Shown: one piece after another, positions 9,530 through 59,617 of the stretch
How the letters are laid out: every line of letters begins with the position of its first letter
How positions within the stretch are numbered: position 1 is the first letter of the stretch
NCBI GenBank assembly: GCA_903840165.1
Contig: CAIMEY010000073.1
Coordinates: 62,001-126,000 of the forward strand
Length of the DNA: 64,000 nt
From: an uncultured Myxococcales bacterium
Lineage (GTDB): Bacteria; Myxococcota_A; UBA9042
Direction of reading: 5' to 3'
Notes under the pieces: generated by a model
What the model was told of the DNA's origin: nothing
What the model saw: only the letters and a program-made list of their open reading frames with translations
The model's database searches: none
Position numbers and translations under genes: made by a program

Positions 9530-12500
9530 TTACCGAGCGAAAACATAGCCAAAAGTTGCGTAGTTCTTACCACCATTGTCCGGCTGCCACTGCCCGTTGG
9601 CCCAGTTGCCGACCGTCACCGTGTTGCAGCCAAAACCTAACCAGGAATCGGGACTTAAGCAGTCATTTTCCTGGTTGTTGACGATGCCGATGCGGCAATC
9701 CAAGGTGTTAAAGCCCTCTTGGTTGCAGTTGAGCTGCAGAGAAGAGCCGACAATCAACGACTTCCACGCATCTCGCCCGGCGCTCGTCGCCTTGAACGCG
9801 CCGTCCTTGATCACGTCATACAGGGAGGTACCCACATAGGAAACCTTCATGTAGTTCAGGAATTGGCCGTCATCCATGCCCAAGCGCAGCTGCGTGAAGG
9901 GCACCGTGCCGTACGAGGGCATCTTGGCCTCATCCTTGTCCAAAGCCGTGGAATCCGGCTTGTAACCGGTGGGCACAAACCACTGAGAGGACGCGAGGCC
10001 AAAAGTCGTTGCATTTCCATCGATTTTAAGCAGCAAGGTCCAGCCGCCGCCGTCATTTTCTTGGTCGCAGTAGTTGGCAAAGGGCAGGCCGGGCCCAGCG
10101 GCACCGTCTGGATCGAGGTAGTAAATACCCGATTTTGTTCCTGGAACGGCGGCTAGAATCGCCTTGCACGAAAGCGCCGGATTGAGGTCACTGCCCAGGG
10201 AGCAGACGCCTGCCTGGCAAATTCCAGATTTTCCACAAGGGGTTGCATTGGCCAAGGCGACGCTGCTGCAACCGCTGGCGATGTTGCAGGTGTCGGCCGT
10301 GCAGGGGTTGTTGTCCGAGCAATTCACCTGTACGCCCAAGCACTTTCCGGCACTGCAGCCGTCTGCTTGGGTGCAAGCGTTGTTGTCGCTGCAGACGGCG
10401 ATGTTGTTGATAGTCTGGCAACCCTTGGCCGAATCACAGTAGTCATCCGTGCAGAGATTGGCGTCGTTACAGACGATCGCATTGCTCTTGCATTGTCCGA
10501 GGTTACACACGTCAGGCCCGGTGCAGGCGTTGTTGTCATTGCAAGGGGCGGTATTGACCTTGTGACTGCAACCCAGCGCTGAATCACAGGTATCGTCTGT
10601 GCACGCGTTGTTGTCGTCGCACGAGAGGCTGACACCGGCCTTGCAACTGCCGGCCACGCAGACATCGCCCAAGGTGCAGACGGTGCCATCGTCGCAAGGG
10701 ACGGCAACCGCCTTGTTTTGGCAGCCTTTTTGTGCATCGCAGCTATCGAGCGTGCAGGCGTTGGCGTCGTCGCAGTTGCTCACGGCACCGGGGAGGCAGA
10801 CGCCGGCTTTGCACGCATCGCCGCTGGTGCAGACGTTGGAATCTGTGCAACTAACGGTGTTATTGGCGAATTGGCAGCCTTTGAGTGGGTCGCAACCGTC
10901 GTCGGTGCAGGGATTGCCGTCGGCACACACGGCTGCGGCCCCGCTCTGGCAACCGCCGCTATTGCAGGTATCGCCGGTGGTGCAGACGTTGCCATCGCTG
11001 CAGGGCAGGCTGTTAGGCACGGGGACGCAACCTTGCTTCGGATCACAGGAATCGCTGGTACAAACGTTGTTATCGTCGCAGGAACTGGCGGCGCCGGGCA
11101 GGCACGCGCCCGCCTGACAGTTGTCGCCGACGGTGCAGACATTGCCATCACTGCAAGCGCCGACATTGGCCACGAATACGCAACCTTTGATTTTATCACA
11201 GCTATCATCGGTGCATGGATTGCCGTCGCCGCACGCGAGCATTTTAGTTCCTACGCAGCTGCCGTCCTGACATGCGTCGCCGGTGCTGCAGATGTTGCCG
11301 TCATCACACGATTTTGCTCCGTTGACGGCGCTGAGCTTGCACTGGCCGTCGCCTGGATCACAGGAGGCGGCGCTGCAGGCAGTGTCCGCGGAAGTATCGC
11401 ATTTCACAATGGTCTTGGCGTCGATGGCGCAGACCGTCTTGCCGGGAGACACGGTCTGGCAGGTCAACTGGCCGGCGCAGAGGTTGGCGCTGGGCGGGCC
11501 GCAATCGGCGTCGATCTTGCAAGCGCAGGTATTGGTTCCGGATTGGCAGGTGCCGTTGCCGCAGGCGTCGCCTTGGGTGCAGGGGTTGTTGTCATCGCAG
11601 GCAAACTGGTTGTCCTGATGCGCGCAGCCGGTCGATGCATCACAACTATCCGTGGTACAAGGATTTTTGTCGTCGCAGTTGATCGGTTGCCCGCCTTTGC
11701 AGTTGCCGTCGGCGCAGGATTCGCCGCCGGTGCAGGCATTGGCATCGGTACACGTCGCCGACGCGGCCAAGTGCGTACAGCCGGCGATCGCCTCACAACC
11801 GTCTAATGTACAAGGGTTATTGTCGTCGCACGACAAAGCACTGCCCGCTGCGCAGCCCCCGCTGGCGCACTGGTCAGCCACGGTGCAGGCGGACCCATCG
11901 GAACACGGACCGCTGGCCGCATCATGGACACAACCTTTTGTTTTGTCGCATGAATCGACGGTACAGGGATTGGCGTCATCGCAGTTGCTGACCGCGCCGG
12001 ACACGCACGCCTTGGCTAGGCAGGTGTCCCCCAGGGTGCAGGCATCGCCGTCATCGCAGGGGGCTCCGTCCTCAGGAAAGTACGCACAACCATTGGCAGG
12101 ATTGCAGGAATCAGCCGTGCACGGATTGCCGTCCTGGCAGACAAAGGCAGCGCCTGGCTCGCACACGCCGGCTGCGCAGGCATCGCCGACCGTGCAGGCG
12201 TTGGCGTCGTCGCAGGGGGCGGCATTGGCCGCGTGCGCGCACCCGTTCTTTGCGTCACAACTATCGCTGGTGCAAGGGTTTTGATCGTCGCAGGCCGTCG
12301 CAGCGCCGGCAAGGCACACGCCTTGAGCGCAGGAATCGCCCGCCGTGCAGGCATTGCCATCCTCGCAAGGACCAACGACATTTTGCGCCAAGCACTGGCC
12401 AATCTCACTGCAACTAAAGACAACGCAAGGAGAACTGCTAGCCGGGCAGTCGGTGCTGGTCTTGCAAACCGTGGTGTCGGCAGCAGAATTGCTGTCCACC

Positions 12501-12727
12501 GCATCCGCAGGCGCATCGGCAGTGGCGTCGGCAGTGGCAACTAGGTCGGCCGCAGCCGTGTCAGATCCGTTGCTGTCGGTCGTCAAGCCGTCGGAATTGG
12601 TTTGGATTACATCAAGATCGGCCGTGAACCCGGTGACAGCGACATCATCCCCACAGCCGCTGAGCAAGGCTACGGACAACAATATTGTCACCCACTTCGT
12701 CCCGCAAGCCATGGTTCTCCTTGACAT
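9530..12727 (-). CDS. Giant secreted Cys-rich repeat protein with C-terminal fibrinogen-like domain
   Basis: Signal peptide/lipobox-like MSRRTMACGTKWVTILLSVALLSGCG; many tandem CDDxNxCTxDSCDxxxGC / CxDGxxCTxGDxCxxGxC units; C-terminal CKAI...GIYYLDPDG...YCDQENDGGGWTLLLKIDG. Confidence 0.85.
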   Translation of the reverse strand: MSRRTMACGTKWVTILLSVALLSGCGDDVAVTGFTADLDVIQTNSDGLTTDSNGSDTAAADLVATADATADAPADAVDSNSAADTTVCKTSTDCPASSSPCVVFSCSEIGQCLAQNVVGPCEDGNACTAGDSCAQGVCLAGAATACDDQNPCTSDSCDAKNGCAHAANAAPCDDANACTVGDACAAGVCEPGAAFVCQDGNPCTADSCNPANGCAYFPEDGAPCDDGDACTLGDTCLAKACVSGAVSNCDDANPCTVDSCDKTKGCVHDAASGPCSDGSACTVADQCASGGCAAGSALSCDDNNPCTLDGCEAIAGCTHLAASATCTDANACTGGESCADGNCKGGQPINCDDKNPCTTDSCDASTGCAHQDNQFACDDNNPCTQGDACGNGTCQSGTNTCACKIDADCGPPSANLCAGQLTCQTVSPGKTVCAIDAKTIVKCDTSADTACSAASCDPGDGQCKLSAVNGAKSCDDGNICSTGDACQDGSCVGTKMLACGDGNPCTDDSCDKIKGCVFVANVGACSDGNVCTVGDNCQAGACLPGAASSCDDNNVCTSDSCDPKQGCVPVPNSLPCSDGNVCTTGDTCNSGGCQSGAAAVCADGNPCTDDGCDPLKGCQFANNTVSCTDSNVCTSGDACKAGVCLPGAVSNCDDANACTLDSCDAQKGCQNKAVAVPCDDGTVCTLGDVCVAGSCKAGVSLSCDDNNACTDDTCDSALGCSHKVNTAPCNDNNACTGPDVCNLGQCKSNAIVCNDANLCTDDYCDSAKGCQTINNIAVCSDNNACTQADGCSAGKCLGVQVNCSDNNPCTADTCNIASGCSSVALANATPCGKSGICQAGVCSLGSDLNPALSCKAILAAVPGTKSGIYYLDPDGAAGPGLPFANYCDQENDGGGWTLLLKIDGNATTFGLASSQWFVPTGYKPDSTALDKDEAKMPSYGTVPFTQLRLGMDDGQFLNYMKVSYVGTSLYDVIKDGAFKATSAGRDAWKSLIVGSSLQLNCNQEGFNTLDCRIGIVNNQENDCLSPDSWLGFGCNTVTVGNWANGQWQPDNGGKNYATFGYVFAR
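10200..12420 (-). repeat. In-frame tandem repeat array encoding ~42-aa Cys/Asp-rich modules
   Basis: Direct reading of the translation: alternating CDDNNxCTxDSCD... and C(S/D)DGNxCTxGDxCxxGxCxxG modules. Confidence 0.85.
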
Positions 12728-12816: not shown

Positions 12817-14304
12817 CTACTTAGATTTCTTTAGATTTTTCTGATACTTGTCCTCAGCCGCGGCCGAGGCATGGCCGGTCGAGATGGCCAAGCGGTAATT
12901 CTCTGTGCAGCGCGCTAAGTCTTTGGCAACACAGGCATTATCTCCGTCAATTTCGAGTAGCCCGGCAATGGCCTCCAAGGCAGCTTCGGCATCGGCACGG
13001 TACACAGAATTAGGAGGGATCATCCGATGTTGCGCGATGGCCGTGGCGTAATCCTTCTTGGCGTAGGCGGCTTCGGCCTGGGCAAATCGGGCACCGGCCT
13101 TCTTCTCCATCGCAATCATATTCAAGGCTTCCGTCGGCCGCGGATGAATCGGGTCGATCTTCCTGGCTTTGCGGAACAATCCTTCCGCCTCATCCCACTG
13201 ACGACGCGCCACAGCATCCTGGCCCTTGGCGAGCAGTTCATCGAACTGAGCCTTGGACGCCTCACCATCTTCCCCAGCTTTATCAGCAGCTTGTGCGCCG
13301 CGATCGCCGGTTGAGGAGCCTTTGTCGCCGCCCGTCGCCGCCTTGTCGCTTGGCGAGCCGTGGGTCGAATCTCCCTTTGCGGGCGCAGCCTTCGCCGTTT
13401 CGGCACCGGCGCGGATGGCCGGACTCAGCCAGCGGTCATAGGCAAACAACACCAGGATAATCAGACCGACCACGGCCAGCAAAATGACCGCCACGGCAGC
13501 CACTTGCGGCAGAAGGGACCGCTGGGGCGGAACCACGTAGGCCGGCTCTTGCGCGCCGTAGGGGTCCGCGTGGGCACTCGCATGGGCATTGTACTGGCTG
13601 TACTGGACGGCGGGCTGCACCAGAGGCCGCGGAGCCGGAGCAGGGCGCGGCGGCGGCGCGGCGTACATCGGCTCGTTGACGTCGATTTCGGCCATACCTT
13701 CGGCCTGAAACATGTAGGCCACCGTGCCAAAGCGAACGCGATCGCCGTGTTGCATCTCCTGCTGGTCAATGCGCCGGTCGTTGATGTAGGTGCCATTGGA
13801 CGAGCGCAAGTCCTCCACGTAGACCCGCCCGCCCGAATCCTGTGTAATCTTTGCATGAATGCGCGAAACGCTGACATCGCTCAGCACGATCGCGCAATCC
13901 TTGCCGCGACCAATCAAGACCGTGGCCTGGCTGAGTTCAGTCAACTCGCCGATGCTGCCCGGCATGGGCACCAGACGACCATAACTGCTTGAAGCCATTG
14001 GCCTTGCGTAGGCCGCGCCTTCAATGTGCAAAAAGAAGTCGCCGATGCGAACCTGAGCCGATCGTGGCAGTTCGGTGACGTTGTAAATCCGCTTGCCGCC
14101 AAGCCAAATGCCGTTGGCGGCCTTGAGATCTTCGATATAACAACGTCCGTCGACGGTAAATAGCCGGGCGTGACGGCGCGACACGTTGTCGGCGGGCAGA
14201 ACAATGTCCGCCTGCTGACTACGGCCAATGATGAACTCACCGTCTTCGAACGAGTATTCGTCGACGATGCTGCCGTGCTTGTCCTCGATGATCAGCGTGA
14301 ACAT
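12817..14304 (-). CDS. Tandem FHA-domain protein with TM segment and C-terminal TPR-like region
   Basis: Two FHA domains (FIIGRSQQADIVLPADNVSRRHARLF...ANGIWLGGKRI; VLIGRGKDCAIVLSDVSVSRIHAKI...SNGTYINDRRI), hydrophobic VAVILLAVVGLIILVLFAY, then TPR-like FDELLAKGQDAVARRQWDEAEGLFRKARKIDP. Confidence 0.85.
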   Translation of the reverse strand: MFTLIIEDKHGSIVDEYSFEDGEFIIGRSQQADIVLPADNVSRRHARLFTVDGRCYIEDLKAANGIWLGGKRIYNVTELPRSAQVRIGDFFLHIEGAAYARPMASSSYGRLVPMPGSIGELTELSQATVLIGRGKDCAIVLSDVSVSRIHAKITQDSGGRVYVEDLRSSNGTYINDRRIDQQEMQHGDRVRFGTVAYMFQAEGMAEIDVNEPMYAAPPPRPAPAPRPLVQPAVQYSQYNAHASAHADPYGAQEPAYVVPPQRSLLPQVAAVAVILLAVVGLIILVLFAYDRWLSPAIRAGAETAKAAPAKGDSTHGSPSDKAATGGDKGSSTGDRGAQAADKAGEDGEASKAQFDELLAKGQDAVARRQWDEAEGLFRKARKIDPIHPRPTEALNMIAMEKKAGARFAQAEAAYAKKDYATAIAQHRMIPPNSVYRADAEAALEAIAGLLEIDGDNACVAKDLARCTENYRLAISTGHASAAAEDKYQKNLKKSK

Positions 14305-14331
14305 GCACCGCTGCTCCGTCGAAACCACGCG

Positions 14332-16488
14332 TTATGCGCGCGCGCCCTCGAAATCTTCCGGTGATAACCACTTGAACGGAGGGCCAAATCCGGTGGTGTT
14401 GAGCACCGCAACCGCCCGCAATACTTCGCGTCCCGCTTCGTGGTCGTATTCAAAGCAGGCCACGGCGTCCACCGCCCTGGTGACCCTTGATTTGGCTACG
14501 TTTTCCGGAATGCCCGGGAAGCGGATAACCATGGCGTGGGTGGCGCGCTCGACAAAATCATCAATCGTCTTGGCATGAAAGCTGCCAATCCACGGCGGCA
14601 GGCCATCGGCGGCCACCGTGAACAGTTCCGCGGTCGAAAGGCTCAAGCATTCGCCGAGCAAAAGCCGATCGGGCATCAAGCGGCGGGCCACCTGCAACGT
14701 CGACGTGCCGGCATCGACGCTGGCCGCACTGTCCAGGCGCAACATGTGCGGCTGGGCGAGGCGCAGGCGCTGGCCGTCTTCCACAACCACAATGCGCTCT
14801 TGCGGATCAATCAGTTGCCCCAGCGCATTGACCACTGTGCGCCGACCGACATTGGGCGCGCCGCAGATGGCGATGGAGCGGCGATCGGCCACCAAGTACT
14901 TGAGCACAGCGCCGGCCTTGGCGCTGACTGAGCCGCGCTCGATCAGTTGATCCAAACTCGGTGATTCTGTTCGCGGTTTGCGCAGGAGTACGGCCGGGCC
15001 AGCTGGGCATAGAGGCGGCCACACCACGCGGACGGTCGTGCCGTCGACCAACGTGCCATCGGCGTTGAGCGAACCGCGTTGCGCTGGGTTGCCTGTGGCG
15101 CGCACCAAGCGATCCACGGCAGCCAACAGAGCCTGCTGGCAAGAGAATCGCTCCGCAACCAGAACGCGATTGCCACCGCGGAAGACGAAGATCTGGGTGT
15201 GACCGTTGATCTCAATGCTTTCCACGGCGGCATCGTCGAGCATGGGCTCGAGCGGGCCTAACCCTGCCAATTCGTAAATTAAATCGCGCTTGATCAGCGC
15301 TAGATCCGCTCCTGCACCGATCTGACCTTGACGGGCCGCTTGATCGACAAAGGCGATGACCCTGTCCTCCATCTTGGTCCACTCGGCATCCGACATCTGC
15401 GCAGCATCACTGGGCAAAAGCGAACGGAGTTCAGCCACGGCGCTGCGATAGAGCACAGCCAGAACGTCAAAGTGCCCCGGGGGCGGCAATTCCTGGGGCG
15501 GCGGCGGGGCGATGGGCGATTTCTCATACTGCGCGGTACGTTTGACCACCGCGTTGTCGCCCAGTCCTTTGCTTGCAGCACCGCCAGCCGTTAGGGCGGA
15601 AGGCCCGGCGTCGGCGGGTGGAGGCATCTTCAAAGCCCCTGCCAATCCAGGGACTTGTGCGGCCAATGATGGGGAGGAGGCACGTGCTTGCAGGGCATCG
15701 GTCAGTCCGGAAACAGAACCCGTGGCGCGACTTTCCCCTGCTGCATCATAGGATTGCGTCGCTTCGCTGGGTGATTTGACGGACGACGGCACCTGCACCG
15801 GCGGCGGCGCAGGAATCACCAGAGACGACGGGATCGGCGCGGGCGGCAAAGGCAGGGGATCTCCAGCCAAACCCAGATCATCTAGATTAAAATCAGGTAC
15901 TTCCCCTGCGGCCGGTGCGTAGGTTTCCAGCGCGGAGAGATCCATCTGATCGTCAAACAGGGGCTGGGGTTCTCCCTCGAGACCACCGCCGGCGAACTGC
16001 GCTTGCGGCAAAGAAGTGCTTGTTTGGGCGTTAGATTTCCCACCCAAGTCCTCCAGAGGCTCCAAAGGCGACATGGCGGTTTCGCGCACGCCGGGCTCAG
16101 CAGTTGGACCGAAGCCTTGCCCCAGGCCATCAAAATCAGGCAGATCGGGCATGCCTGGAACGGGTGGCGCATCCCCCGGCCCTTGGTCAGCCGACGCCGA
16201 CAGATCCAGGAAATTCATCACAAAGTCACCGAGGTAGACTTTGTCGTCCGGCCCAATTTCTACAGCGGCGGCGATGCGATGGCCATTGACATAGGTGCCG
16301 TTGGTCGACCCTAAGTCTTCGACAACAAAGCGCGCCCCCTGACTGCGGACGACGGCATGGCGCTTGGAAATGTTTTGCTTGGGCAAAATAACATCATTTC
16401 CCTTGACTCGCCCGATGAGAACCTCGGGTTTATCAAAGTGAAATGTGTAGACTTGGCCACTGCGCTCGCGGATGGTGATGCTGAACAT
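14332..16488 (-). CDS. FHA domain fused to CpaF/TadA-type secretion ATPase domain (degenerate P-loop)
   Basis: N-terminal FHA (VLIGRVKGNDVILPKQNISKRHAVV...STNGTYVNGHRI); C-terminal CpaF-like GLGPLEPMLDDAAVESIEINGHTQIFV...ERIVVVEDGQRLRLAQPHMLRL; Walker A equivalent GAPNVGRRTVVNAL. Confidence 0.8.
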   Translation of the reverse strand: MFSITIRERSGQVYTFHFDKPEVLIGRVKGNDVILPKQNISKRHAVVRSQGARFVVEDLGSTNGTYVNGHRIAAAVEIGPDDKVYLGDFVMNFLDLSASADQGPGDAPPVPGMPDLPDFDGLGQGFGPTAEPGVRETAMSPLEPLEDLGGKSNAQTSTSLPQAQFAGGGLEGEPQPLFDDQMDLSALETYAPAAGEVPDFNLDDLGLAGDPLPLPPAPIPSSLVIPAPPPVQVPSSVKSPSEATQSYDAAGESRATGSVSGLTDALQARASSPSLAAQVPGLAGALKMPPPADAGPSALTAGGAASKGLGDNAVVKRTAQYEKSPIAPPPPQELPPPGHFDVLAVLYRSAVAELRSLLPSDAAQMSDAEWTKMEDRVIAFVDQAARQGQIGAGADLALIKRDLIYELAGLGPLEPMLDDAAVESIEINGHTQIFVFRGGNRVLVAERFSCQQALLAAVDRLVRATGNPAQRGSLNADGTLVDGTTVRVVWPPLCPAGPAVLLRKPRTESPSLDQLIERGSVSAKAGAVLKYLVADRRSIAICGAPNVGRRTVVNALGQLIDPQERIVVVEDGQRLRLAQPHMLRLDSAASVDAGTSTLQVARRLMPDRLLLGECLSLSTAELFTVAADGLPPWIGSFHAKTIDDFVERATHAMVIRFPGIPENVAKSRVTRAVDAVACFEYDHEAGREVLRAVAVLNTTGFGPPFKWLSPEDFEGARA

Positions 16489-26390: not shown

Positions 26391-29300
26391 CTACAGGGAA
26401 CGGCTCGCCGCGCCTTCGGGTTGGGCCGAGGTGCGTTGCGCCCCTCCACGTTGAAACATTTCGGCTTTCTTGAGGTGGTTGTACAGCGTCACCCGGTTGA
26501 TGCCGAGCGATTCGGCAGCGCGCTTCTTGTTGCCGCCCAGGGCCGCCAGCCGCTGCACGCACAGTTCAAGGACGAGCGACTCCAGCGATCCCTGACCATC
26601 ACCCGCTAAGCCCGCAACTTCAGGACACAAATCGGAGCCACCTTCGCGCAGCAGCAGCGGTTCGACATCGGCTAGGTGCAGCACGGGCCCATTGGCGAAC
26701 AAACATGCTGATTTTAAAAGCATCTCCAGCTGCCGCACGTTGCCTGGCCACCCGTAGCGCTGCAGCCGTTGCAAAGCTGCGGGCGCGATGCGCTGGACTT
26801 GGCCCACGCCGGCCGCGCGGTTCTCGGCCAAGAAATGTTCAGCAAGAATTGGAATATCTTCAGGTCGTTGGCGCAGGGGCGGAATCTCCAGCTCGACCAC
26901 CCGCAGGCGATAGAGCAGGTCTTCCCGGAACTGGCCCTGAGCGACCATGGCCAGCAAATCCCGGTGCGTGGCGGCCAAAACGCGGACGTCTACCTTGCGC
27001 GGCGCGGTCTCGCCAACTCGCGTAATTTCATTGGTTTGCAGGACGCGCAGCAGCTTGGGCTGCATGTCCAAGGGCATCTCGCCCACTTCGTCGAGCAAGA
27101 GCGTGCCGCCGCTGGCTGCCTCAAACAAGCCGCGCCGATCGGCCGTTGCCCCGGTGAAACTGCCGCGAGAGTGACCAAACAGCTCTGATTCTAGAAGGTT
27201 ACCAGGCAATGCTGCGCAGTTAATCGCGACAAAGGGCCCCTTTCGGCGGCGACCGGTGAAATGGATGGCGCGGGCCACGAGTTCCTTGCCCGTGCCGCTT
27301 TCCCCGCGCAAAAGCACGGGAAAGTCGTGGTCGCGCACCCGAGCCATCAAATCGAACAGTTTGTGCAACTTCGCGCTTTCACCGCGAATTCGTGAGAATT
27401 CACTGCGCCGCGCCGTGTCCAGCCGTTGCGCTTCCATGTCAGCCCGCACATTGACCAAGGCCGATTCCGCCGCATCGAGGCGCTCCTGCAATTGTTCATT
27501 CAGCGCATGCACTTGCGCCCGACTACTCGCGAGTTCACCAGCCGTGCGCCGCGCCGCCTCGAGTAGCCGCGCGGTGTGAATGGCAATGGCCGCCTGGTCG
27601 GCGAGGGCCTCCAACACGCCGCGGTGCTCCCCCGAAAAAGCGCCCGCTGTGAAGCGGTTATCGACATACACCACACCAATGGGCCTTCCCTGCAGGTTCA
27701 TCGGCACGCAGAGAATCGACCGCAGCGAGCCATGGTGAATGCTGGCCTGATCGGCAAAGCGTTCATCGAGTTGCGCATCCGTGGCCAGGACGGCTTCCCC
27801 CGCGGCAAACACCGACATCGCCACCGATTGGCTAAGCTTATGCTGCGGCTTCTTGAGGTTTTCGCGGTCCAAATTGCGGGCCACGGCAATGCGCAGACGC
27901 GCTTCCAGGTCCGTGGTCCGCCTCCCCGTGACGTCCTCGGGTTCCTCCAGCAACAGAAAGCCCCGCTCGGCGCCAGTCAGCAAAACCGCTGCATCCATCA
28001 CACGTTCCAGCAAGGCTGCTACGTCGTGCTCACTGGATAGCTGCCGATTGATCGCCAGCAAGGCCGACAGGGCCCCGCCAAGCGATGCCAGCTGACCTGG
28101 GGCGCGCAGTGACTCCGGAAGATTCGCTAGAATCTGCAAGGTGTTGCGGAGCGGCAGACGCGACGGGGCGAGGGCAAATGCGTGAGCCACGTGCGGCGGC
28201 AACGTGCGCGCAACCTGAGCCAGTTGGTCTTGCGTTTGTCGAGCTGTTGTGCGGGCTTGAGCCACATTGCCGGCGAATAGCTGGGCCCGCGCTAGCTCGG
28301 CCGCAATGGCGACACCGAGCAGGGCTTTGGAAGCCGGGGCGAGTTGCTGCGCGGCCTGCAAATGCTCCAGGGCTTGGTTACGAGATTCGGAGAGAACCTC
28401 GGGAAGATCAAGCAGTTGCTGACCAAGACCAAGCAGAGCGCGCGCCTCCTGTTCGGCGTTGCCCAATCGCGCAGCCGCGACGCGCAGTTCGAGAAACAGC
28501 CGATGCGCCAAAGCAGAATTACCCCGCGCAGCAGCCAACTGCGCACGTTCTAAGCGCATTTCCAAGTGTTCATTGTTGGCACCGGCTGCGGCGATGGCTG
28601 CCTCGGCCTTCTGCAACTGGGCGTCTGCGGTGGAAATCTGCCCAGCTCGACGCGCCAACTCTGCAAGAACACAGCGAACATTGCCTTCCAGATAGCCATT
28701 TCCAGAGGCAGCCATCGCTTGCAGGGCTAGGTCGAGGTCGGCCAGGGCTGCCGTGTCATCGCCAAGCAAGGCCCATAGATTGCCACGGTTGTTGCAAGCG
28801 CGCGCCAATGCTCCGGGATTATTAAGTTCCTTGGCTGCGGCGATCACGCGATCGTACCCTTCCAACGCCCGTCCAAGGTCCCCCTGATCGTGGTCCAACA
28901 CCGCTGCGTTCATGGCCATGTTGAGGGCGCGGGGATAATCGCCAGCAACCTCGGCAAGTTCCCTGGCATTGCGATAACATTGCCGGGCTAAGTCCAAATC
29001 GCCGCGACGGTGCGCTACCAAACCCAACCCGCCCTGCGCCGCTGCCCGCACGGAGGCGAGTGTGGAATCCGCCAGGGCCGCGAATTGCGCTTGCGATTGA
29101 CCGAGTTCCCCTGCGTAGTAGGCCCCGAGCGCCTGCAAATAGGCAAAGAGGTCATGGGCTTCATCCGTAGCTGAAAGTGAAAGCCCGCGTGCGACCGCAG
29201 CAGCAGCAGCCGGGCGATCTCCTTGCCATGTGGCAGCAAATCCAAGCCATAACAAGGCCTTATGCGACCAATCGGCCTCTTGCAGCAAGGGCTCTGCCAA

Positions 29301-31475
29301 GGACCGGCACTGCGGATAATCACCGCGCACAAACGCGGCTTGGGCCAGGGCCAGACGCACCACGGGCGAAGTTGGCAGTTGCGCAACGTCGTTAACCTGC
29401 TGATCTAACTCCGTAAATTTTCCTTGAGCGGCCAGCGATTCAATGGTCAACGCCTGCAGATTTGCTTGCACCCCTTGGCCCGAGGGCAGAACCGCTGCAT
29501 AGGCGCGAACCAAATGGGTGGCAAGGTCAGGTTGCCCTTGCTGAATCAGGGCTTGCCCAGCCTCCAGCACGGCTTGGGCTGGGGGCAGAGGTGCCAAGCC
29601 GGCCGCGTGCACCTGCAGCCACACGCCCAAGCGCTGCGGGTCGTCTTGGGGCCAGGATTGGAGTTGCGCAGCCAGCGCCTGCGCCCACTGATCTGGGGAC
29701 ACGGCACGGCAAATCTCTTGAATGTACGCATTGTTCGCCACCACGAGGCGGCCATCCGCCCGGCGACGCAGCCACCGCCGATCGAGGTCAAGCGGCGCGG
29801 GGCCATCGATGCCGCGCGGGCCTGCGGCTGCCAGTCCGGCCAGCCAGGGCAGCGCTGAAGGGGCCGGCAAAGGTGGCGACTGAACTGGAATCACGAGCAA
29901 TTTCAGGTCGCGGGCGCTCCCTTCGCCGATCACGCGGACCACAGCGTCGGCAGTGGGCTCCACCAGCCCGGCGTGAACCGCAGCCCAAGCGCCTTGCGCA
30001 ACGCCGCGTCGCGAACCGGTCCAGGCGATCAGTTGTTCGACCAAATCCGCGGGCCAATGCCGCCCCCCACAGGCCGACGCCAAGGCCGCTGCGGTCTCCG
30101 CCAAGGTCGGCGGCGGCAACGGCCAATGCGCGCCCTCGCTGCCAACCGGGGCCTCACAAACCGTTGCAACAACAGCGCAAACTGGCTGCAGGTGGCGCAG
30201 GGCCCGTGCTGTTGCTGGCGCGAGGTGGTCTGCGTCGTCGATCAGTAGCCAGCCAGAAGGGCCGAGCCCCGCTGCGACCGCCTGCCAGCACGCGAGTTGG
30301 TGCGCAGCCTCGGCCGCGGCATTGCCGGTCAAGACTTGCTCGGCCTCAGCGGGCACAATCCTTGGCGGCAGGCTTAGTTGCAACTGTTGCGCGGCGTCGA
30401 TCCAGGGCTCGGCCGACCCTTCGCCCTCCAGCAAGGCGACGGGCCGTCCTTGGGCTCTGGCCTGGGCGGCCAAGGCGCGAACCACGCCCGTTTTCCCAAG
30501 GCCTGCGCCTCCTTCGCACCAGGTCACCATACCGGCGGACGGCAGCAGCAGGTCGGGCATGTTCGGCCAGCGGCCCCAACGCCAGGGACGTTCGGCCAGA
30601 GCCTGCAGATCCCGCAAAACAACGGTCTTTTCAAGATATTGGGCACCAATCGCGCCAAGACTTCGGCAGGCCTGTTCCGCCGACGCAGGACGCAGCGCGC
30701 GCGACGGCGCAATCCAACCACTTAAAATCTCTAAGAATGCACGTTCGTCGGGCCTAACACTGCCCAGGACCGGTCGATCGCCCGGCGTCGGCAATATCGA
30801 AGGATAGTTGAGGTAGGGCGCAGACTTTTGCCACGCCAGCCACACGCTCATGCCCAGGGCAAAGAGGTCATCCCGACAATCGGCCGGTTCGCCACGCAGG
30901 GCCTCCGGGGCGGCGGTCTGCAGGTGCCCAGGGCCAGGCAATGCGGCTCCCTGACGCACGCAAAGTCCTAGATCGAGAAGGGAAACCCGCGCATCGTCTA
31001 AGGATTCGACAATCAGGTTGCTAAAGTGAAGGTCGCCGTGCACCAGACCTGCTGCGTGCAGGGGCTGCAATGCCCGCGCCAAAGCGCCAGTAATCGCAAT
31101 GACTTGAGCGAGCGAGGCATCGGCCAAAGCTTGGTCCAGCGGGATCCCAGGACGCAAGGTCATCACCAAAGTCGCCGGCTCCAGCCAAGCGACGGGCTGC
31201 GGCAGCGCATCGCTGACCACATCGTGCAGCACCTGCCATTCCCGCGCCAAAGCCCCTTCTTGGCCTCGATGTGCGCATTTTCCCACCAGAGTCCATTCGC
31301 CAGGTCCGCGACGACGCGCCAGCCGGACCTGACCGCCTCCACCCTGGCCAAGCACGCTGCCCCACAAATACCGTGCATTTTCAGGCCATTGAATCGCTTG
31401 CTGCATCACCAACTCCTGCGCGGCTCGCAACTCGCCCGGGAAACTGGGATTGGGGCAGTGCGACTTTGTATACAT
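26391..31475 (-). CDS. Mega-regulator: Ser/Thr kinase-like - STAND/AAA ATPase - TPR - GAF - sigma54-interaction AAA+ - Fis HTH
   Basis: [14 protein letters not shown]...HGDLHFSNL...LLDLG (kinase-like); [18 protein letters not shown] (P-loop); TPR-rich middle; [18 protein letters not shown]...[15 protein letters not shown]...[13 protein letters not shown]-terminal [24 protein letters not shown]. Alternative start at 31406. Confidence 0.9.
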
Positions 31476-41003: not shown

Positions 41004-44000
41004 CTAGAGTTGCTTGATGATGACCTTGCCAACGCCGGCGTTGAACGCCCCGGTCGCGACGGGATTGGCTCCGGAATTGTAGGAGCCACCGCCGCCGCCG
41101 CTGGTGTGATTGGAGTACGTGCCGCCCTGGCCGCCGCTGTAGCCGCCACCACCGCCCGCGCGGCAGACATTGTCGCAGCCAACGCCGCCACCGGCACCGA
41201 AGCCACCGTCACCGGTTGAGGGGAATTGGGCATAGGAATTGTAGCCCTTGCCGCCACTGCCACCGCTGGTGAAGGCGATGCCGCCTTTGGAGCTCCCGCC
41301 GTAGCCGTTGGCACCGCTTCCGGTGAGGCCGCCACCGCCAGAACCGTAGCCGTCACCGCCGGATACGGCTCCGCCCGCGCCATTGGCACCGCCGCCTGCG
41401 CCATTGGTCGAGCCGCCTGCCGTGCCGGTCTGGCCATCGGCGAAGGTCATCGCGCCGTAGCCCCAACCGCCGCCGCCTCCCGCGATCAAAAGGGGAGAGT
41501 TGTCCTGGCGTGTGACAAAAGAGCCGCCGCCGCCGCCACCGCCGAAGTAGGAGACCCCGGAAGACGCCTGCTGGTCTAACCCCATTTGGCCAACCAAAAT
41601 CTTGAGTTGATCGCCCTGCTTGAACGAGAACTCGCCATAGATCTTCGCACCTTTGCCGCCCGAAAGTCCGCCCTGAGCGCCCCAAGCTTCAACGCTGTAG
41701 TTGGCCGTCACAGGGACCGTCCAAAGTTGGATGCCCGATGAAACCTGAACTTTTCCGGTTAGTTGATCGGCACCCGTGTAGGTCGCGTCGCACTGCCCCT
41801 GGGTCGGGCCGGTCAAGCCGGTGGCGCCGCAACTCTGGAAGGTCGCGCTGGCCTTGATGTTGAACTGGCACTTGTTGTTGCAGACGTCGTTGTCGATGGC
41901 GTTGCCGTCGTCGCATTGCTCGCTGGCTTGGTTGACGATGCCGTCGCCGCAGTACGCTTTGGCCACGCACTGGCCGGTCTTGCACCACAAATTGACGCCG
42001 CAACCGATTTGATCGGCCAAGGCAGCGTGCAGACAACCTTGCTTGCTGTCACAGGAATCTGTGGTGCAGGGGTTGTTGTCATCGCAGTTGGTCGGCGTGC
42101 CGACGCAAGCGCCTAGGCTGCACGTGTCGCCGACGGTGCAGGCATTGCCGTCGCTGCAGTTGCCGCCGACGTTGCCGTGCACGCAACCCTTAACAGGATC
42201 ACATGAATCGCTGGTGCAGGTATTCGCATCGTCGCAACTGGTCACGGCCGCGGGCATGCAGAATCCGGCCTGGCAGTTGTCACCCAGGGTGCAGACGTTG
42301 CCGTCATTGCAGGGCCCCGGAACGAGAATAAATTGGCAACCTTTCACGGCGTCGCAGGCGTCCATGGTGCACGGATTGCCGTCGGCGCAGGCCTTGGGCG
42401 AGCCAGGCGTGCAAGTGCCGCCTTTGCAAATGTCGTAGTCGGTGCACAAGCTCCCGTCATCACAAGGCAAACTGTTGGCCATGGCCTGGCAGCCCTTGAC
42501 GGGATCGCAGAAGTCTTGGGTGCAAGGGTTGGCGTCGTCGCAGGTCTTTTGCGGCCCGGGCATGCACGAGCCGCCCTGGCAACTGTCGAACACGGTGCAC
42601 CCATTGTTATCACTGCAGATTCCCGAGTTGGCGGAATGTTGGCAGCCCTGGGTGGGGTCGCAGCCATCGTTGGTGCAGGTGTTGCCGTCATCGCAGCCGA
42701 CAGGCTTGCCGGCCTGACAATCGCCGCCCTGGCAAGTGTCACCCAGGGTGCAGATATCCCCGTCATCACAAGCCATTTTGTTATTGACGGTGGTGCAGCC
42801 GCTCAGGGCGTCGCACAGGTCATTGGTGCAGGGATTGCCGTCGTCGCACTGAATCGACTTACCTGGCGCGCACTTCGCTCCCTGGCAGAGATCGCCCTGG
42901 GTGCAGACGTTGCCGTCACTGCAGGCGACGCTGTTGGCCGCGAAAGTGCACCCCTTGATGCCGTTGCAAGCATCGTCGGTGCAAGGGTTTCCGTCGGCGC
43001 AAGGCAGCGGCGCGCCGCCGACGCAACTGCCATTGGCGCAGGCGTCTGCCGTGGTGCACAGGTTGCCGTCACTGCAAGGGACGGTGTTGTGGGCAAAGAC
43101 ACAGCCGTCCTTGACGCTGCAACTGTCTGTTGTACATAGGTTATTGTCGTTGCATTCGGTTGCGGTGCCCGGCAGGCACTTGCCGGCCGCGCAGAGGTCG
43201 CCGACGGTGCAAGCGTTGCCATCGCTGCATTGGCCCAGGTCGTCGGGCGCGACGGTACAGCCTTTGATTGGATCGCAACTGTCTATGGTGCAAGGGTTTT
43301 TGTCGTCGCACACCACTGCGGAGCCCTGGCACTTGCCGTTGTTGCATTCGTCGCCGCTGCTGCAGACCGAACCGTCATCACAGGCCCCAGTCTTGGGCGG
43401 GTGTTGGCAGTCGCCGGCGACGCAATTGTCGTATGTGCACGGGAGGTTATCGTCGCATAGGCCAGGGCCAGGCTCATCGGTTTGGCCGTCACAATCGTCG
43501 TCGAGCAAGTTGCACGTTTCCGCCTGGGCCTGTCCGGCACTGCATGCACCGAGGCCAGAATCGCCACAACTGCGCTTTCCACCACAAGTTCCTGCGGCAT
43601 TGACGCTTGAGCAAGCCGTCAAAAGTTGCAGTTTGGTGGCCCGCGTGTCGCAAGCGCAAACGAGGTCCTTTTTGACGCATTGCCCACTGCTAACGCCGCC
43701 CAAACTCGCTCCAGTTTTGCAGCCATAGTCGGCTGGGCAGGCCGAGTCGCTGTCGCACGCTGCCCCGCAAAACGCGCCCAGAATTGCGCCCGAGGCGTCT
43801 TTGTACGGCATGCAGCGGTTGTCACTGCCGCCAAGCACGTTGTTGCAGTCACTATCCGCCTGACATGGTTCACAAATCCGCGGATACTGCGGCACGCACA
43901 CGGCGACAATGTCGCCCCCGGCGGAGGCCACCTGGGCGCAGTGCATGCCCGCGTCGCAGCCCTCGGCGCACAGCTTGGCGCACTGTTTGGCGGCATCAAC

Positions 44001-44339
44001 CTCAACGCAAAATCCTGAATCGCATTGGGTATTTTCCTTGCAACTGCAGCCAGCGCCTGTGCAGCCCGCGTCCGTCACGCTGAGGTCCGCGCCGCTATCG
44101 GCCGGTCCGAGGTCCGTGGCCGCAACCTCATCGGCAGCCTGAACGTCGACAGCTGGCACATCATCAGCAACATCCAGGACATTGCTGTCACCCAGCTGCC
44201 CCGCCACCTCGCTGTCCTGCGCTGTTGCCGCGCCATCCTGCCCGCCGCCGTTGTTGGCCGTGCTGCAGCCCACCAGGACCGATGCGCCCAGGGCTAAAAG
44301 GACAAGACAGCGCTTGAATCCTAGGAATTGACAGGACAT
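41004..44339 (-). CDS. Cys-rich repeat lipoprotein with MopE-like motif, Myxo disulfide repeat and C-terminal Gly-rich domain
   Basis: MSCQFLGFKRCLVLLALGASVLVGCS; ETCNLLDDDCDGQTDEP; tandem CDDxNPCTxDSCD modules; YCGDGIVNQASEQCDDGNAIDNDVCNNKC; C-terminal GGGGGGSFVTRQDNSPLLIAGGGGGWG.... Confidence 0.85.
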   Translation of the reverse strand: MSCQFLGFKRCLVLLALGASVLVGCSTANNGGGQDGAATAQDSEVAGQLGDSNVLDVADDVPAVDVQAADEVAATDLGPADSGADLSVTDAGCTGAGCSCKENTQCDSGFCVEVDAAKQCAKLCAEGCDAGMHCAQVASAGGDIVAVCVPQYPRICEPCQADSDCNNVLGGSDNRCMPYKDASGAILGAFCGAACDSDSACPADYGCKTGASLGGVSSGQCVKKDLVCACDTRATKLQLLTACSSVNAAGTCGGKRSCGDSGLGACSAGQAQAETCNLLDDDCDGQTDEPGPGLCDDNLPCTYDNCVAGDCQHPPKTGACDDGSVCSSGDECNNGKCQGSAVVCDDKNPCTIDSCDPIKGCTVAPDDLGQCSDGNACTVGDLCAAGKCLPGTATECNDNNLCTTDSCSVKDGCVFAHNTVPCSDGNLCTTADACANGSCVGGAPLPCADGNPCTDDACNGIKGCTFAANSVACSDGNVCTQGDLCQGAKCAPGKSIQCDDGNPCTNDLCDALSGCTTVNNKMACDDGDICTLGDTCQGGDCQAGKPVGCDDGNTCTNDGCDPTQGCQHSANSGICSDNNGCTVFDSCQGGSCMPGPQKTCDDANPCTQDFCDPVKGCQAMANSLPCDDGSLCTDYDICKGGTCTPGSPKACADGNPCTMDACDAVKGCQFILVPGPCNDGNVCTLGDNCQAGFCMPAAVTSCDDANTCTSDSCDPVKGCVHGNVGGNCSDGNACTVGDTCSLGACVGTPTNCDDNNPCTTDSCDSKQGCLHAALADQIGCGVNLWCKTGQCVAKAYCGDGIVNQASEQCDDGNAIDNDVCNNKCQFNIKASATFQSCGATGLTGPTQGQCDATYTGADQLTGKVQVSSGIQLWTVPVTANYSVEAWGAQGGLSGGKGAKIYGEFSFKQGDQLKILVGQMGLDQQASSGVSYFGGGGGGGSFVTRQDNSPLLIAGGGGGWGYGAMTFADGQTGTAGGSTNGAGGGANGAGGAVSGGDGYGSGGGGLTGSGANGYGGSSKGGIAFTSGGSGGKGYNSYAQFPSTGDGGFGAGGGVGCDNVCRAGGGGGYSGGQGGTYSNHTSGGGGGSYNSGANPVATGAFNAGVGKVIIKQL
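42000..43460 (-). repeat. In-frame tandem repeat array encoding Cys/Asp-rich modules
   Basis: Same CDDxNxCTxDSCD / CSDGNxCTxGDxC consensus as the 9530-12727 protein. Confidence 0.85.
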
Positions 44340-44412
44340 GGCTGCTCCCCTTGTGCAAGCCCGCGCGACTGCGCCGGGTCTTGTGGCTACGACCGGCATG
44401 ACGCAGGTGAAA

Positions 44413-46137
44413 TTAGCGAACCCAAATCTGACCTTCCAGCACGGCCTTGATGGGGCTTGGTGCCGGACTCCACGGGTATTGGAAGTACCCCGCACCAGCG
44501 CTGATGCTGTTGCCGGCCGCGGCAAACAGACCAAAACCAATGCAACTATCCTGGCTGTCAGAGCTATCGTTGTCGGCGCTAAAGCCCAGGCGAGCGCCGC
44601 CGTGGGTCGAAGTGCCCGTGTTCCAGCCGAAGCGGTGCCACGTGTAGGCTCCCCAAACTCCGCCCGCGGTAATGGATTTCCAGGTCGCTGTCAGCAAGTT
44701 GTTGACACCCTGGCTCGAGGCCAAGGGGCCGCTGTTGGCCAAGTCGCGCGGGACGGTCGCAGCATGGACGAAGTTCTCGCAGGCCCAGGAGCCGTCGTCG
44801 TAACGCTTGATGCACGCTTTGGTCTGGGTGGCCGCCAACTTATAGAAAGCTCTGGAGATTTCGTCGGAATTGTCCGTCGGCAAGGGGATCTGGCCGGCGG
44901 CATTGTCGTTGTCGGTCCAGACCTTGTCGCTGTAGCCCCACGGTGAGGTGGTCGAAGTCTTCATGACCAGCGTCCAACCACCGTTTTTCATGTCACAATA
45001 CGCCTGAAACGCTGCGGGAGAGGCATCGGGCTTGAGCCAGTAAACCCCATCGGCATTGCTGCCCGCATCGACAATGGCTTTGCACGAGGCGCCTGGGTTG
45101 TTCACCGAGCCTGGAGGCCCAACCTTGGCAAAGGCCACGTAACCACTACCATTACAGATCACCAAGCTGTTGGCCGTGGTGTTGTAGTAGGTCAGGCCGA
45201 CCACGGTGGCATCACAAGGCACAGGGTCGTTGGCGGCGTTTTGGAAGCGAAACAAAAGCGCTTGGTTCTTATTGAATTGCGCCGAAGCACCCAGGGAAAT
45301 GGCCCCCAGGGTCTGCGAGCCGGTCCACACGTTGTTGGCGGCCAGGGCGCCATAGCCGGACAGATCGGGACCTCCCTGTAAATCTGCATACTTACCGGTC
45401 TGCGCAACCTTGGCTAGGCTGCCACCCTTGACTAAGTCGGCAACTACGTTGGCATCGAACTGGGCGGCGCTGATGCACCCCGTGCACGCGAGTTTCTTAG
45501 CCTGACCGGCCTCATCAGAACTACTTGCAAAATCAGCGACTTTTGCCGAGCCAGCTGAAGCTGCGTACGTGGCATTGTCCGCCTTGGCCGCCGAATCGGC
45601 TTGGGTGGCTGAATCGGCCTGCTTGGCCGACAGGGCTTGACCACCCTTGCTGTCTGAGCCGGCGTAAGAAAAGGCGACGTGTTGCGCCTGCACCGCGCCG
45701 ACGGCCAGATCAGCACTGCCAATGCACCCTGAACATTGCACATCTAAAGCCAATTTCGCCACACGCGCGCTCAGGGCCGACGGGACATCGTGGACAAGCT
45801 GACGGGGTAGTTCCGGATTGCCAGCGACGGTGACGCCGATCCAGCGGGCCTCGCCCGGGAAAACGCTGTCGTCAAGCTTGGTTTTCTTGGCTCCGAGGTC
45901 CAAGGCGAACAGGCCATACTGCACGGGGACTGCCAGGAAATCCTCCTCAAACAGTGAGTTTCCAGCCAATTGAGCATCATAGACGGTGATGGCCATGGCA
46001 TAGTCGCCATCGGGCACGGGCGAACCGGCTTGGCTGCGCAGGGTGCCTTCAATGGCGAGTTGGGTCGACTCTGCCCAAGCGCTTGAAGTTAAAGCGAAAA
46101 AACCGAGAACCAACAACCAAATCGAACCCGAGCGCAT
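44413..46137 (-). CDS. Secreted protein with alanine-rich heptad-like stalk and C-terminal fibrinogen-like domain
   Basis: Signal peptide MRSGSIWLLVLGFFALTSSAWA; AKQADSATQADSAAKADNATYAASAGSAKVADFA; CKAIVDAGSNADGVYWLKPD...AYCDMKNGGWTLVMKTS. Confidence 0.8.
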   Translation of the reverse strand: MRSGSIWLLVLGFFALTSSAWAESTQLAIEGTLRSQAGSPVPDGDYAMAITVYDAQLAGNSLFEEDFLAVPVQYGLFALDLGAKKTKLDDSVFPGEARWIGVTVAGNPELPRQLVHDVPSALSARVAKLALDVQCSGCIGSADLAVGAVQAQHVAFSYAGSDSKGGQALSAKQADSATQADSAAKADNATYAASAGSAKVADFASSSDEAGQAKKLACTGCISAAQFDANVVADLVKGGSLAKVAQTGKYADLQGGPDLSGYGALAANNVWTGSQTLGAISLGASAQFNKNQALLFRFQNAANDPVPCDATVVGLTYYNTTANSLVICNGSGYVAFAKVGPPGSVNNPGASCKAIVDAGSNADGVYWLKPDASPAAFQAYCDMKNGGWTLVMKTSTTSPWGYSDKVWTDNDNAAGQIPLPTDNSDEISRAFYKLAATQTKACIKRYDDGSWACENFVHAATVPRDLANSGPLASSQGVNNLLTATWKSITAGGVWGAYTWHRFGWNTGTSTHGGARLGFSADNDSSDSQDSCIGFGLFAAAGNSISAGAGYFQYPWSPAPSPIKAVLEGQIWVR

Positions 46138-46297
46138 GCCACACCTTGACGCCGAACCCAGCATCCCAGTTCTGCATGTTCCGTGCGCCGGGGCGTGTCG
46201 TCAAGCGGTTGGGGCGACCGGGGCTGCGAACGTAAATTGATTGACGTTTGGCACCGCTGGCATTGCCGAAGAGGCCGCTTCCGACGCGGCAGTACCG

Positions 46298-55140: not shown

Positions 55141-55186
55141 GTGACGAGGACAGGTGCGACCCCGTCGCGCCGTTTCAGGAGGAAAG

Positions 55187-56932
55187 ATGGCAGATGGCAA
55201 CCGCAAGAACGTTGATACGACACAGGATGTGCCGCTAGAGCGCCTCGCCGCCAAGGCCAAAGTAGCGCCACCACCTAGCCCAAAGGTAGCCGAGCCGAAG
55301 CTGCCGCTAAGTGCCGACGCCGCTGCGCGCCTAGAGATAGAACTGACCGAGTTTATTCGGCAAGAGAAGATCGAGCTGGGCATTGGTATTGACGCGCACT
55401 TCAAGGACGTGGTCCAAGACGGCTTCACCGCAGCCCAGCGTCCGCACACGACAATTCTGGTTTCTGGCCTGACTTTTGCCCATGACACCTTTGCCACGGC
55501 GGCGCTGCGCGGCCTGGGCTACAAAGTGCGGGCGATGGACGTCCCGGATGTGGAATCCCTGCGTTTTGGCAAGGAATTCGGCAATCGCGGCCAGTGCAAT
55601 CCGACCTACTTCACCGTAGGCAACCTTGTGAAATTCCTCACACAGTTGCGCGATGAAGGCATGACCACGGAGCAAATCTGCGAGCGCTACATCTACTTGA
55701 CGGCCGGAGCCTGCGGGCCTTGCCGTTTTGGCAGCTATACGACGGAGTACCGAAAAGCTTTGCGGGATGCGGGGTTTGACGGCTTTCGCGTGACTCTGTT
55801 CCAGCAAAAGGGAGGGCTAGAGCAAGGCAGCGCCGACCAAGCCGGCTTGCAGATGGGGCCGCCGTTTTTCGTCCGGATTCTGCTGGCTTTGATGATTGGT
55901 GACGCCCTCAACGCTTTGATGTACCGCATCCGTCCCTACGAAGTCGAGGCGGGCGCCACCGACCGCGCCCTGCAACAATGCCGGGCCATGCTGGTACATA
56001 CCCTTGAAACACCAGGCGAATTGCCCAAGATACCTCTAACGCTAATCCGGGTGCGGCGGACCCTGGGGCGCATCGCGGTCGATCGGACCCGCATCAAGCC
56101 AAAGGTTGGAATTATTGGCGAATTCTGGGCCATGACCACAGAGGGCGATGGCAATTACAAGATGCCCAGCTTTCTCGAGAGCGAAGGGGCCGAAGTCGAT
56201 GTGCAGTTGGTGACGGCTTGGCTGCTGTATAACCTCTGGGAAGTACGGTGGGATACCCAGAGACGCCTGGGCCTTTCTGGCACCGATGGTGGGCTGTGGG
56301 GCCTAGCCGGCAAGGACAATCCGGGGCGCACGGTGTGGATGATGCACGCTGCGGACAAGGCGCTGCGCGTCGTGTTTCAATCCATCGCCAACACCATGGG
56401 ATTGCACGGTTATGTGCTGCCAGACATGAACGAACTGGCCGAAGTGGTCAAGGGCCACTACCACTACGAGGTGCGCGGCGGCGAAGGACATATGGAAGTC
56501 GCCAAGCTGATCCTCAATACCGTGCACCGCAAGGTCAATATGACCTTATCGATCAAGCCTTTTGGCTGCATGCCCAGCAGCGGCGTCTCCGACGGCGTGC
56601 AAAGCGTGGTGCAGGCGATCCACCCCGATGCACTGTATTTGCCTGTAGAAACAACGGGAGACGGCGCAGTCAACGTCTATTCGCGCGTACAGATGGTCCT
56701 GCACAAGGCGCGACAAGTCGCCCAGCAAGAAGTGGCGACGGCGTGCGCAGAGAACGGCACAAATCTTGAGCAAGTTCAAGGTATTTTGCGGAGGCACCCT
56801 TGGCTCGGGCGGGCCCTGCATCGAGCCCCGCATGGCGCGGGCTGCACGGCAGCTGATGTGGTGAGCGAGGTCGGGAGCTGGCTAAAATTCGTGCCAAAAT
56901 CAATGCCTTGGCTCAAGCAAGTGCCGGCTTGA
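55187..56932 (+). CDS. Companion subunit of 2-hydroxyacyl-CoA dehydratase/activase system
   Basis: FGNRGQCNPTYFTVGNLVKFL...TAGACGPCRFGSYTTEYRKALRDAGFDGFRVTLFQQKGG...KVGIIGEFWAMTTEGDGNYKMPSFLESEGAEVD; RBS aggaggaaag. Confidence 0.82.
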   Translation: MADGNRKNVDTTQDVPLERLAAKAKVAPPPSPKVAEPKLPLSADAAARLEIELTEFIRQEKIELGIGIDAHFKDVVQDGFTAAQRPHTTILVSGLTFAHDTFATAALRGLGYKVRAMDVPDVESLRFGKEFGNRGQCNPTYFTVGNLVKFLTQLRDEGMTTEQICERYIYLTAGACGPCRFGSYTTEYRKALRDAGFDGFRVTLFQQKGGLEQGSADQAGLQMGPPFFVRILLALMIGDALNALMYRIRPYEVEAGATDRALQQCRAMLVHTLETPGELPKIPLTLIRVRRTLGRIAVDRTRIKPKVGIIGEFWAMTTEGDGNYKMPSFLESEGAEVDVQLVTAWLLYNLWEVRWDTQRRLGLSGTDGGLWGLAGKDNPGRTVWMMHAADKALRVVFQSIANTMGLHGYVLPDMNELAEVVKGHYHYEVRGGEGHMEVAKLILNTVHRKVNMTLSIKPFGCMPSSGVSDGVQSVVQAIHPDALYLPVETTGDGAVNVYSRVQMVLHKARQVAQQEVATACAENGTNLEQVQGILRRHPWLGRALHRAPHGAGCTAADVVSEVGSWLKFVPKSMPWLKQVPA

Positions 56933-57009
56933 CACAGGCGTGGTCCCCGGGCAAGGTGAAGGCGTGCCAGCGCGGCAGCAACGCCTCGCGGCTTTCCCTG
57001 GGGGATCGA

Positions 57010-59157: not shown

Positions 59158-59531
59158 AAGTTGTCCGGCGGACTCCCTGGGATAAAAGTAGGAATTTACG
59201 AGTGGTTCGTCGCTGGCGACTCCAATCGAGGTGCCAAGCAGGGCTCCTGCACACCCAAATCGCGCAATTGGATGCCCCCGCTCCGGCGGCCGCGCGCCAG
59301 CCTGCAAAGCAAATCTCTCTTCTAATCAGCAGGGTGACGGCCAATCGGGCGTTCAATGCAAGGGATGACTTGGCCCTTGACATGGACCTGCGGCAGACGG
59401 CAACCGCCTTCAGATAACCGACCGGGATACCCATACGGCCAACCTGAGACGGCGGGGCACGTGGGGATGAGCCCAGGGTTTCCCTCCCGGGTCATCTCGA
59501 ATCGCAGGCGTTATGCATGGTTTGGGGTGGA

Positions 59532-59579
59532 CGATCCTAAGGGATCGCGGCCGGCTATGGCTCCTCGGAGTCACAGCCG
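59532..59579. other. Two consecutive stem-loops in an intergenic region (possible terminator/leader/ncRNA element)
   Basis: cgatcc-taag-ggatcg (59532-59547) and cggctatggctc-ctcg-gagtcacagccg (59552-59579; 10 Watson-Crick pairs, one GU, one mismatch). Confidence 0.5.
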
Positions 59580-59617
59580 TGGTTAGTTATTAATTTATTT
59601 ATTCCATGAGGTTATGC

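Follow-up and report, generated by a model that had tools for sequence, protein, structure and literature searches.

The 718-aa protein encoded on the minus strand at positions 14332–16488 of the window (the whole 64,000-nucleotide stretch of an uncultured Myxococcales genome that was analyzed) is a CpaF homolog by sequence and fold, but by its tested catalytic features it is no CpaF motor. We consider it probable that the protein is an orphaned Kil-type FHA-CpaF that has turned into a phosphothreonine-gated, nucleotide-independent scaffold, its residues suggesting that catalytic activity has been lost.

An FHA-CpaF fusion had been predicted at this position from the DNA letters alone. The ORF bounds proved exact, with the gene on the minus strand, a point left unstated in the prediction, and Pfam detected an FHA domain together with a T2SSE match (residues 482–649, 9e-12). 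The features of the gene and of its partner are as follows.

14332–16488, minus strand: FHA-pseudo-CpaF gene, 718 aa (ORF, Pfam, and orthologs in 20/22 family genomes)
16228–16422, minus strand: FHA domain, residues 23–87 (Pfam 1.7e-17; core residues from invariant alignment columns)
15481–16194, minus strand: linker, approximately residues 99–336, poorly conserved and presumably disordered (alignment and dN/dS)
15721–15723, minus strand: Thr256, candidate FHA phosphothreonine ligand, in the sole conserved linker motif, R-x-T-G-[PS]-[LIV] (putative role)
14335–15480, minus strand: CpaF-like three-helix bundle, N-terminal and ATPase domains, residues 337–718 (AlphaFold and PDB match)
14836–14862, minus strand: altered Walker A GAPNVGRRT, residues 543–551 (sequence and orthologs)
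14779–14781, minus strand: Asp-box Glu570, corresponding to CpaF E312 (present in 20/20 orthologs)
14650–14664, minus strand: Walker B strand LLLGE, with Glu613 corresponding to CpaF E357 (E, D, A or G among orthologs)
12817–14328, minus strand: partner gene FHA-FHA-TM-helical repeat, 503 aa, 3 bases downstream of the FHA-pseudo-CpaF gene
13447–13503, minus strand: single transmembrane segment of the partner, residues 276–294 (mean hydropathy 3.39; model helix 273–312)

The phosphothreonine-binding core of the FHA domain is intact (G26, R27, S41, H44, S61, T62, N63 and G64, all in invariant alignment columns), and includes the G-R, S-x-x-H and N-G residues that make up the signature of a phosphothreonine reader.

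The catalytic residues were mapped by alignment to C. crescentus CpaF, using the roles given in PMC12019362, in which T288 is the Mg-binding residue, and R217 and R223 are the N-terminal arginine fingers. The P-loop of the window copy reads G543-A-P-N-V-G-R549-R550-T551, and departs from the GxxxxGK[ST] of the CpaF/TadA motor. Arg in place of both the Walker A Lys and the following Thr, as claimed in the original prediction, can be read directly from GAPNVGRRT. Relative to C. crescentus CpaF, four of the aligned residues are replaced (K287 by R549, T288 by R550, R217 by T479 and R223 by T485), and four are conserved (D215 as D477, E312 as E570, R347 as R603 and E357 as E613). The NTD arginine fingers of the CpaF/TadA motor are absent from the window copy, which carries T479 and T485; the Asp-box Glu (E570), the Walker B Glu (E613) and the α9 arginine are kept. 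The Walker B element is G612-E-C-L-S, in agreement with the earlier reading of GECLS in place of a GEVRG-type element, and the Asp box V-V-V-E570-D-G-Q is present, as had also been noted. The predicted catalytic defect is therefore larger than Walker A alone, with the two N-terminal arginine fingers also gone.

The CpaF fold, comprising the 3HB, NTD and CAD, is predicted to be retained. Residues 337–718 were modeled at a mean pLDDT of 93.6 (AlphaFold2, 48 aligned sequences), and the top PDB match of the model was CpaF (8rjf_A, E 2.5e-32, TM 0.75, 381 columns, full length), followed by the archaellum ATPase FlaI. C. crescentus CpaF was likewise first (E 1e-64) when the family profile was compared with solved structures.

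Orthologs were found in 20 of the 22 genomes of the window's taxonomic family, the two family genomes in which none was found being G018 (67% complete) and G020 (88% complete). Residue counts over the 20 orthologs include the window copy, taken from its own sequence. The Mg-binding Thr position is Arg in all 20; at the Walker A Lys position, 14 have Arg and 6 have Lys. The check on conservation of the Arg-Arg pair thus gave a divided answer: the Thr-to-Arg change is fixed, but the Lys-to-Arg change varies between lineages. An intact GK[ST] was found in none of the 20 family orthologs, intact versions being confined to more distant relatives, and orthologs with an intact GKT, which had been named as grounds for abandoning the idea, therefore did not appear within the family. 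G[KR]R is present in nearly all family members, and the rest of the loop varies. A sequencing error or chance as the source of the altered loop was ruled out by its recurrence in 19 other family genomes. Among the 19 orthologs that contain the N-terminal finger region, the R217 position is Thr in 18 and Ala in 1, and every one of them has Thr or Ser at the R223 position. The Asp-box Glu is conserved throughout (20/20), the Arg603 position is R or K in 19/20, and the Walker B Glu position is E in 11, D in 6, A in 2 and G in 1.

The altered ATPase domain is under strong purifying selection, and is maintained rather than decaying, because its dN/dS is low and its P-loop is unchanged in genus g5. 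In four species of this genus, dN/dS of the ATPase domain was 0.03–0.07, and the P-loop showed no amino-acid change (dN 0) at dS 0.3–0.8. The corresponding dN/dS in genus g7 was 0.05–0.15. Within genus g5, the values were 0.007–0.018 for the FHA domain and 0.23–0.38 for the linker; more broadly, the FHA domain gave 0.01–0.04, compared with 0.17–0.38 for the linker.

To place the gene among its relatives, a tree of 75 ATPase-domain sequences was built with the P-loop columns excluded, and rooted on CpaF without FHA. The first branches among the FHA-type sequences are the site-intact FHA-CpaF L041, L042 and L043, and a stem with 100/100 support leads to 65 divergent FHA members, mostly Myxococcota where named, among which the window's family forms one clade. 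GxxxxGK[ST] is kept in 11 and lost in 57 of the 68 FHA-type rows, and at least 5 changes of Walker A state are needed on the tree. On this topology, the window gene belongs to a radiation that spans Myxococcota and branches from FHA-CpaF genes with an intact catalytic site. A separate FHA-CpaF branch (L040, L048, L063, L071) has an intact GK[ST], a DEC[RH]G Walker B and the partner adjacent; L040 adjoins oligopeptide ABC transporter genes. In a Polyangiaceae-type branch (L052, L058, L065–L069, L072–L078), the P-loop is unrecognizable, and the FHA-FHA partner gene was not adjacent at the loci scored.

The site-intact loci L041, L042 and L043 all have an FHA-FHA protein directly downstream; a secretin gene lies directly upstream at L042 and L043, and L043 also has a prepilin peptidase. 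The window pair probably derives from a KilF-KilD-like unit, because these intact relatives have the secretin upstream (L042, L043) and the FHA-FHA partner downstream, an arrangement that matches Kil cluster 1; the M. xanthus proteins KilF and KilD enter this comparison by their published description. Kil cluster 1 comprises the kilA peptidase, the kilC secretin, the kilF FHA-ATPase and kilD downstream (PMC8460266), and in the window an FHA-CpaF gene is likewise followed by a multidomain gene.

The partner combines a pair of FHA domains with a single membrane segment and a helical repeat domain, the last modeled with high local confidence. It is adjacent in 72 scored locus entries, some of which overlap and represent the same place twice, and these include site-intact FHA-CpaF loci. 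The tandem-FHA/TPR membrane protein that had been described as a neighbor is correctly placed, and is conserved across loci. An adjoining adhesin gene at 9530–12727 had also been described; the gene is real and carries Dicty_CTDC repeats, but it is rarely conserved, a gene of its repeat cluster being present in just 2 of 20 other neighborhoods, and it was rejected as a partner. It is one of two large Cys-rich Dicty_CTDC repeat proteins located approximately 30 kb apart (9530–12727 and 41007–44540, minus strand), the second of which is adjoined by a weak Fibrinogen_C-like match (44416–46164).

Within the family, thiE-thiG and exopolysaccharide genes are frequent neighbors of the pair, which elsewhere adjoins unrelated genes; adjacency to exopolysaccharide genes holds for part of the window's family, not for the class. 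The conserved unit consists of two genes, because the other recurring neighbors (thiG/thiE, polysaccharide, gidA, acetyl-CoA synthetase and M3 peptidase genes) are unrelated. No secretin, prepilin peptidase, pilin-type or platform gene was recognized among the window proteins scanned. Elsewhere in the window, the minus strand at 26394–31475, near the polysaccharide genes, encodes a 1694-aa protein that joins a weak Ser/Thr kinase domain to TPR, GAF and a sigma-54 activator domain with HTH. The plus strand at 55154–61243 encodes three proteins of 546–749 aa with no Pfam match.

Among family members whose linker is complete, nearly all have the motif R-x-T-G-[PS]-[LIV] around Thr256. A Thr followed by an aliphatic residue at +3 is the kind of site that suits FHA binding. 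Because the Thr256 motif has this residue, its phosphorylated form is a candidate ligand through which the protein may engage either itself or its partner. The host genome contains approximately 50 kinase-domain matches, and these kinases could supply the phosphothreonine.

When genome contigs were searched, a single protein as query gave no match, and an alignment as query matched. The host genome is 93% complete, so gene absences are not absolute. It contains three PilB/GspE-like and two PilT-like ATPases; in one PilT-like copy (L007, G000:C121:86665-87177), Walker A is altered to GAAGSGRSS and the Walker B stretch is without GE. The search for an intact cpaF paralog, proposed earlier as a check, found none in the host genome: the other T2SSE matches are PilB/GspE- or PilT-like, and L008 is a ClpB-type chaperone. 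With no live paralog in the host, the window gene is therefore not an inactive duplicate that accompanies an intact one. No TadB/TadC-type platform was found in the host genome, in which the T2SSF proteins number three, with two domains each. A separate canonical CpaF is present in four other pseudo-CpaF-bearing family genomes (G006, G010, G013, G019), and none is listed in the remaining family genomes with pseudo-CpaF. Most genomes that carry the pseudo-CpaF are thus without a CpaF motor.

The lack of intact orthologs in the family, the lack of a paralog and the purifying selection support the original prediction of a pseudo-ATPase that serves as a scaffold tethered by its FHA domain; the inactivity and the scaffold role are themselves inferred. 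An active Kil-type FHA-CpaF ancestor would have given rise to a pseudo-ATPase that does not hydrolyze ATP and that assembles in the cytoplasm into a static platform, probably a hexamer. In place of the Thr-Mg-Glu bridge, the pocket may be locked by Arg550 opposite the retained Glu570. The FHA domains would recruit threonine-phosphorylated proteins, possibly including the Thr256 motif of the protein's own linker, under Ser/Thr kinase control, and the partner would tie the platform to the inner membrane and pass the signal to the periplasm. Control of surface polysaccharide would be the first candidate output, because the unit often lies beside exopolysaccharide genes in its own family. Residual nucleotide binding is possible, because Lys is retained in 6/20 orthologs, the Asp-box Glu is invariant, and the Walker B position is E or D in 17/20. 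A broader reading, which is conceivable but falls short of probable, is that a Myxococcota radiation left the pilus altogether, with a hexameric motor becoming a nucleotide-independent, phosphothreonine-gated scaffold with a membrane partner; in the window's family, the invariant Arg would replace Mg, pair with the Asp-box Glu and freeze the ring.

The residues that would allow nucleotide binding, together with R or K at the Arg603 position, are also what an atypical but active ATPase would be expected to keep. In such an enzyme, residue 549 would bind phosphate, Glu570 and Glu613 would catalyze, and Arg550 would partly replace the fingers, the protein serving as the motor of an unrecognized filament. 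This is unlikely: the Mg-binding Thr is Arg in every ortholog, both N-terminal fingers are gone wherever the region is present, three orthologs have Ala or Gly at Walker B, the host is without a TadB/TadC-type platform, and related branches have no recognizable P-loop at all. The persistence of G[KR]R across almost the whole family in an otherwise variable loop, and the strict selection on the P-loop, would suit a non-hydrolyzing nucleotide or anion sensor. Its adjacent basic pair would bind a nucleotide or a second messenger in the absence of Mg, and the bound ligand would determine the shape of the scaffold; however, the basic pair is lost in other branches of the radiation, and we give this reading a low probability.

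Were the protein a regulatory pseudo-subunit, entering or blocking the ring of a different ATPase, its possible targets would be the PilB-, PilT- and GspE-type ATPases of the host, but these belong to other subfamilies and no gene linkage to them was seen, which leaves this explanation very unlikely. The absence of Tad platform genes from the host and the repeated changes of Walker A on the tree might suggest a pseudogene in decay, left over from a lost Tad/Kil system, or a sequencing error. The same loop type nevertheless occurs in 20 genomes, and decay was ruled out by intact frames and the dN/dS of 0.03–0.07, so that the chance of either is minimal. The phosphothreonine-gated scaffold is therefore the reading that we prefer.

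The relatives range by degrees from active-looking to fully eroded, which makes the step from motor to scaffold directly testable. An FHA-CpaF/partner unit surviving without a pilus also offers an entry to the many FHA proteins associated with Kil-dependent predation, for which a role in signaling has been raised as a question (PMC8460266). No earlier report of a natural pseudo-ATPase of the CpaF branch was found in the literature searched.

KilF (MXAN_3107) of the Tad-like Kil system of M. xanthus is likewise an FHA-CpaF of Myxococcota with a multidomain partner next in the operon (PMC8460266). It works with a secretin, platform and pilins, and is required for pilus growth (PMC12075869). Compared with KilF as described, the window protein is without the catalytic residues, and its locus is without secretin, platform or pilin neighbors; KilD is described as cytoplasmic, whereas a membrane segment is present in the window partner. 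Class III CpaF shares the order FHA-disordered linker-3HB-NTD-CAD, and the window protein matches CpaF best in both structure and sequence, but in the available text of PMC12019362 the members of this class are described as CpaF orthologs, mostly from betaproteobacteria, without mention of inactive ones. The Walker A mutant K327A of M. xanthus PilB neither hydrolyzes ATP nor supports pilus motility, and still signals EPS production; it offers a precedent for the proposed role, as a pilus-type ATPase that signals nucleotide-free and not as a motor (PMC5544727). PilB belongs to another subfamily, however, and its mutation is engineered, whereas the state of the window protein is natural. FHA switches of the GarA/OdhI type are small inhibitors of metabolic enzymes, in which the FHA domain lies near a conserved Thr motif able to bind the FHA domain in the same protein. 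The window protein similarly pairs an FHA domain with a nearby Thr motif, here a candidate ligand.
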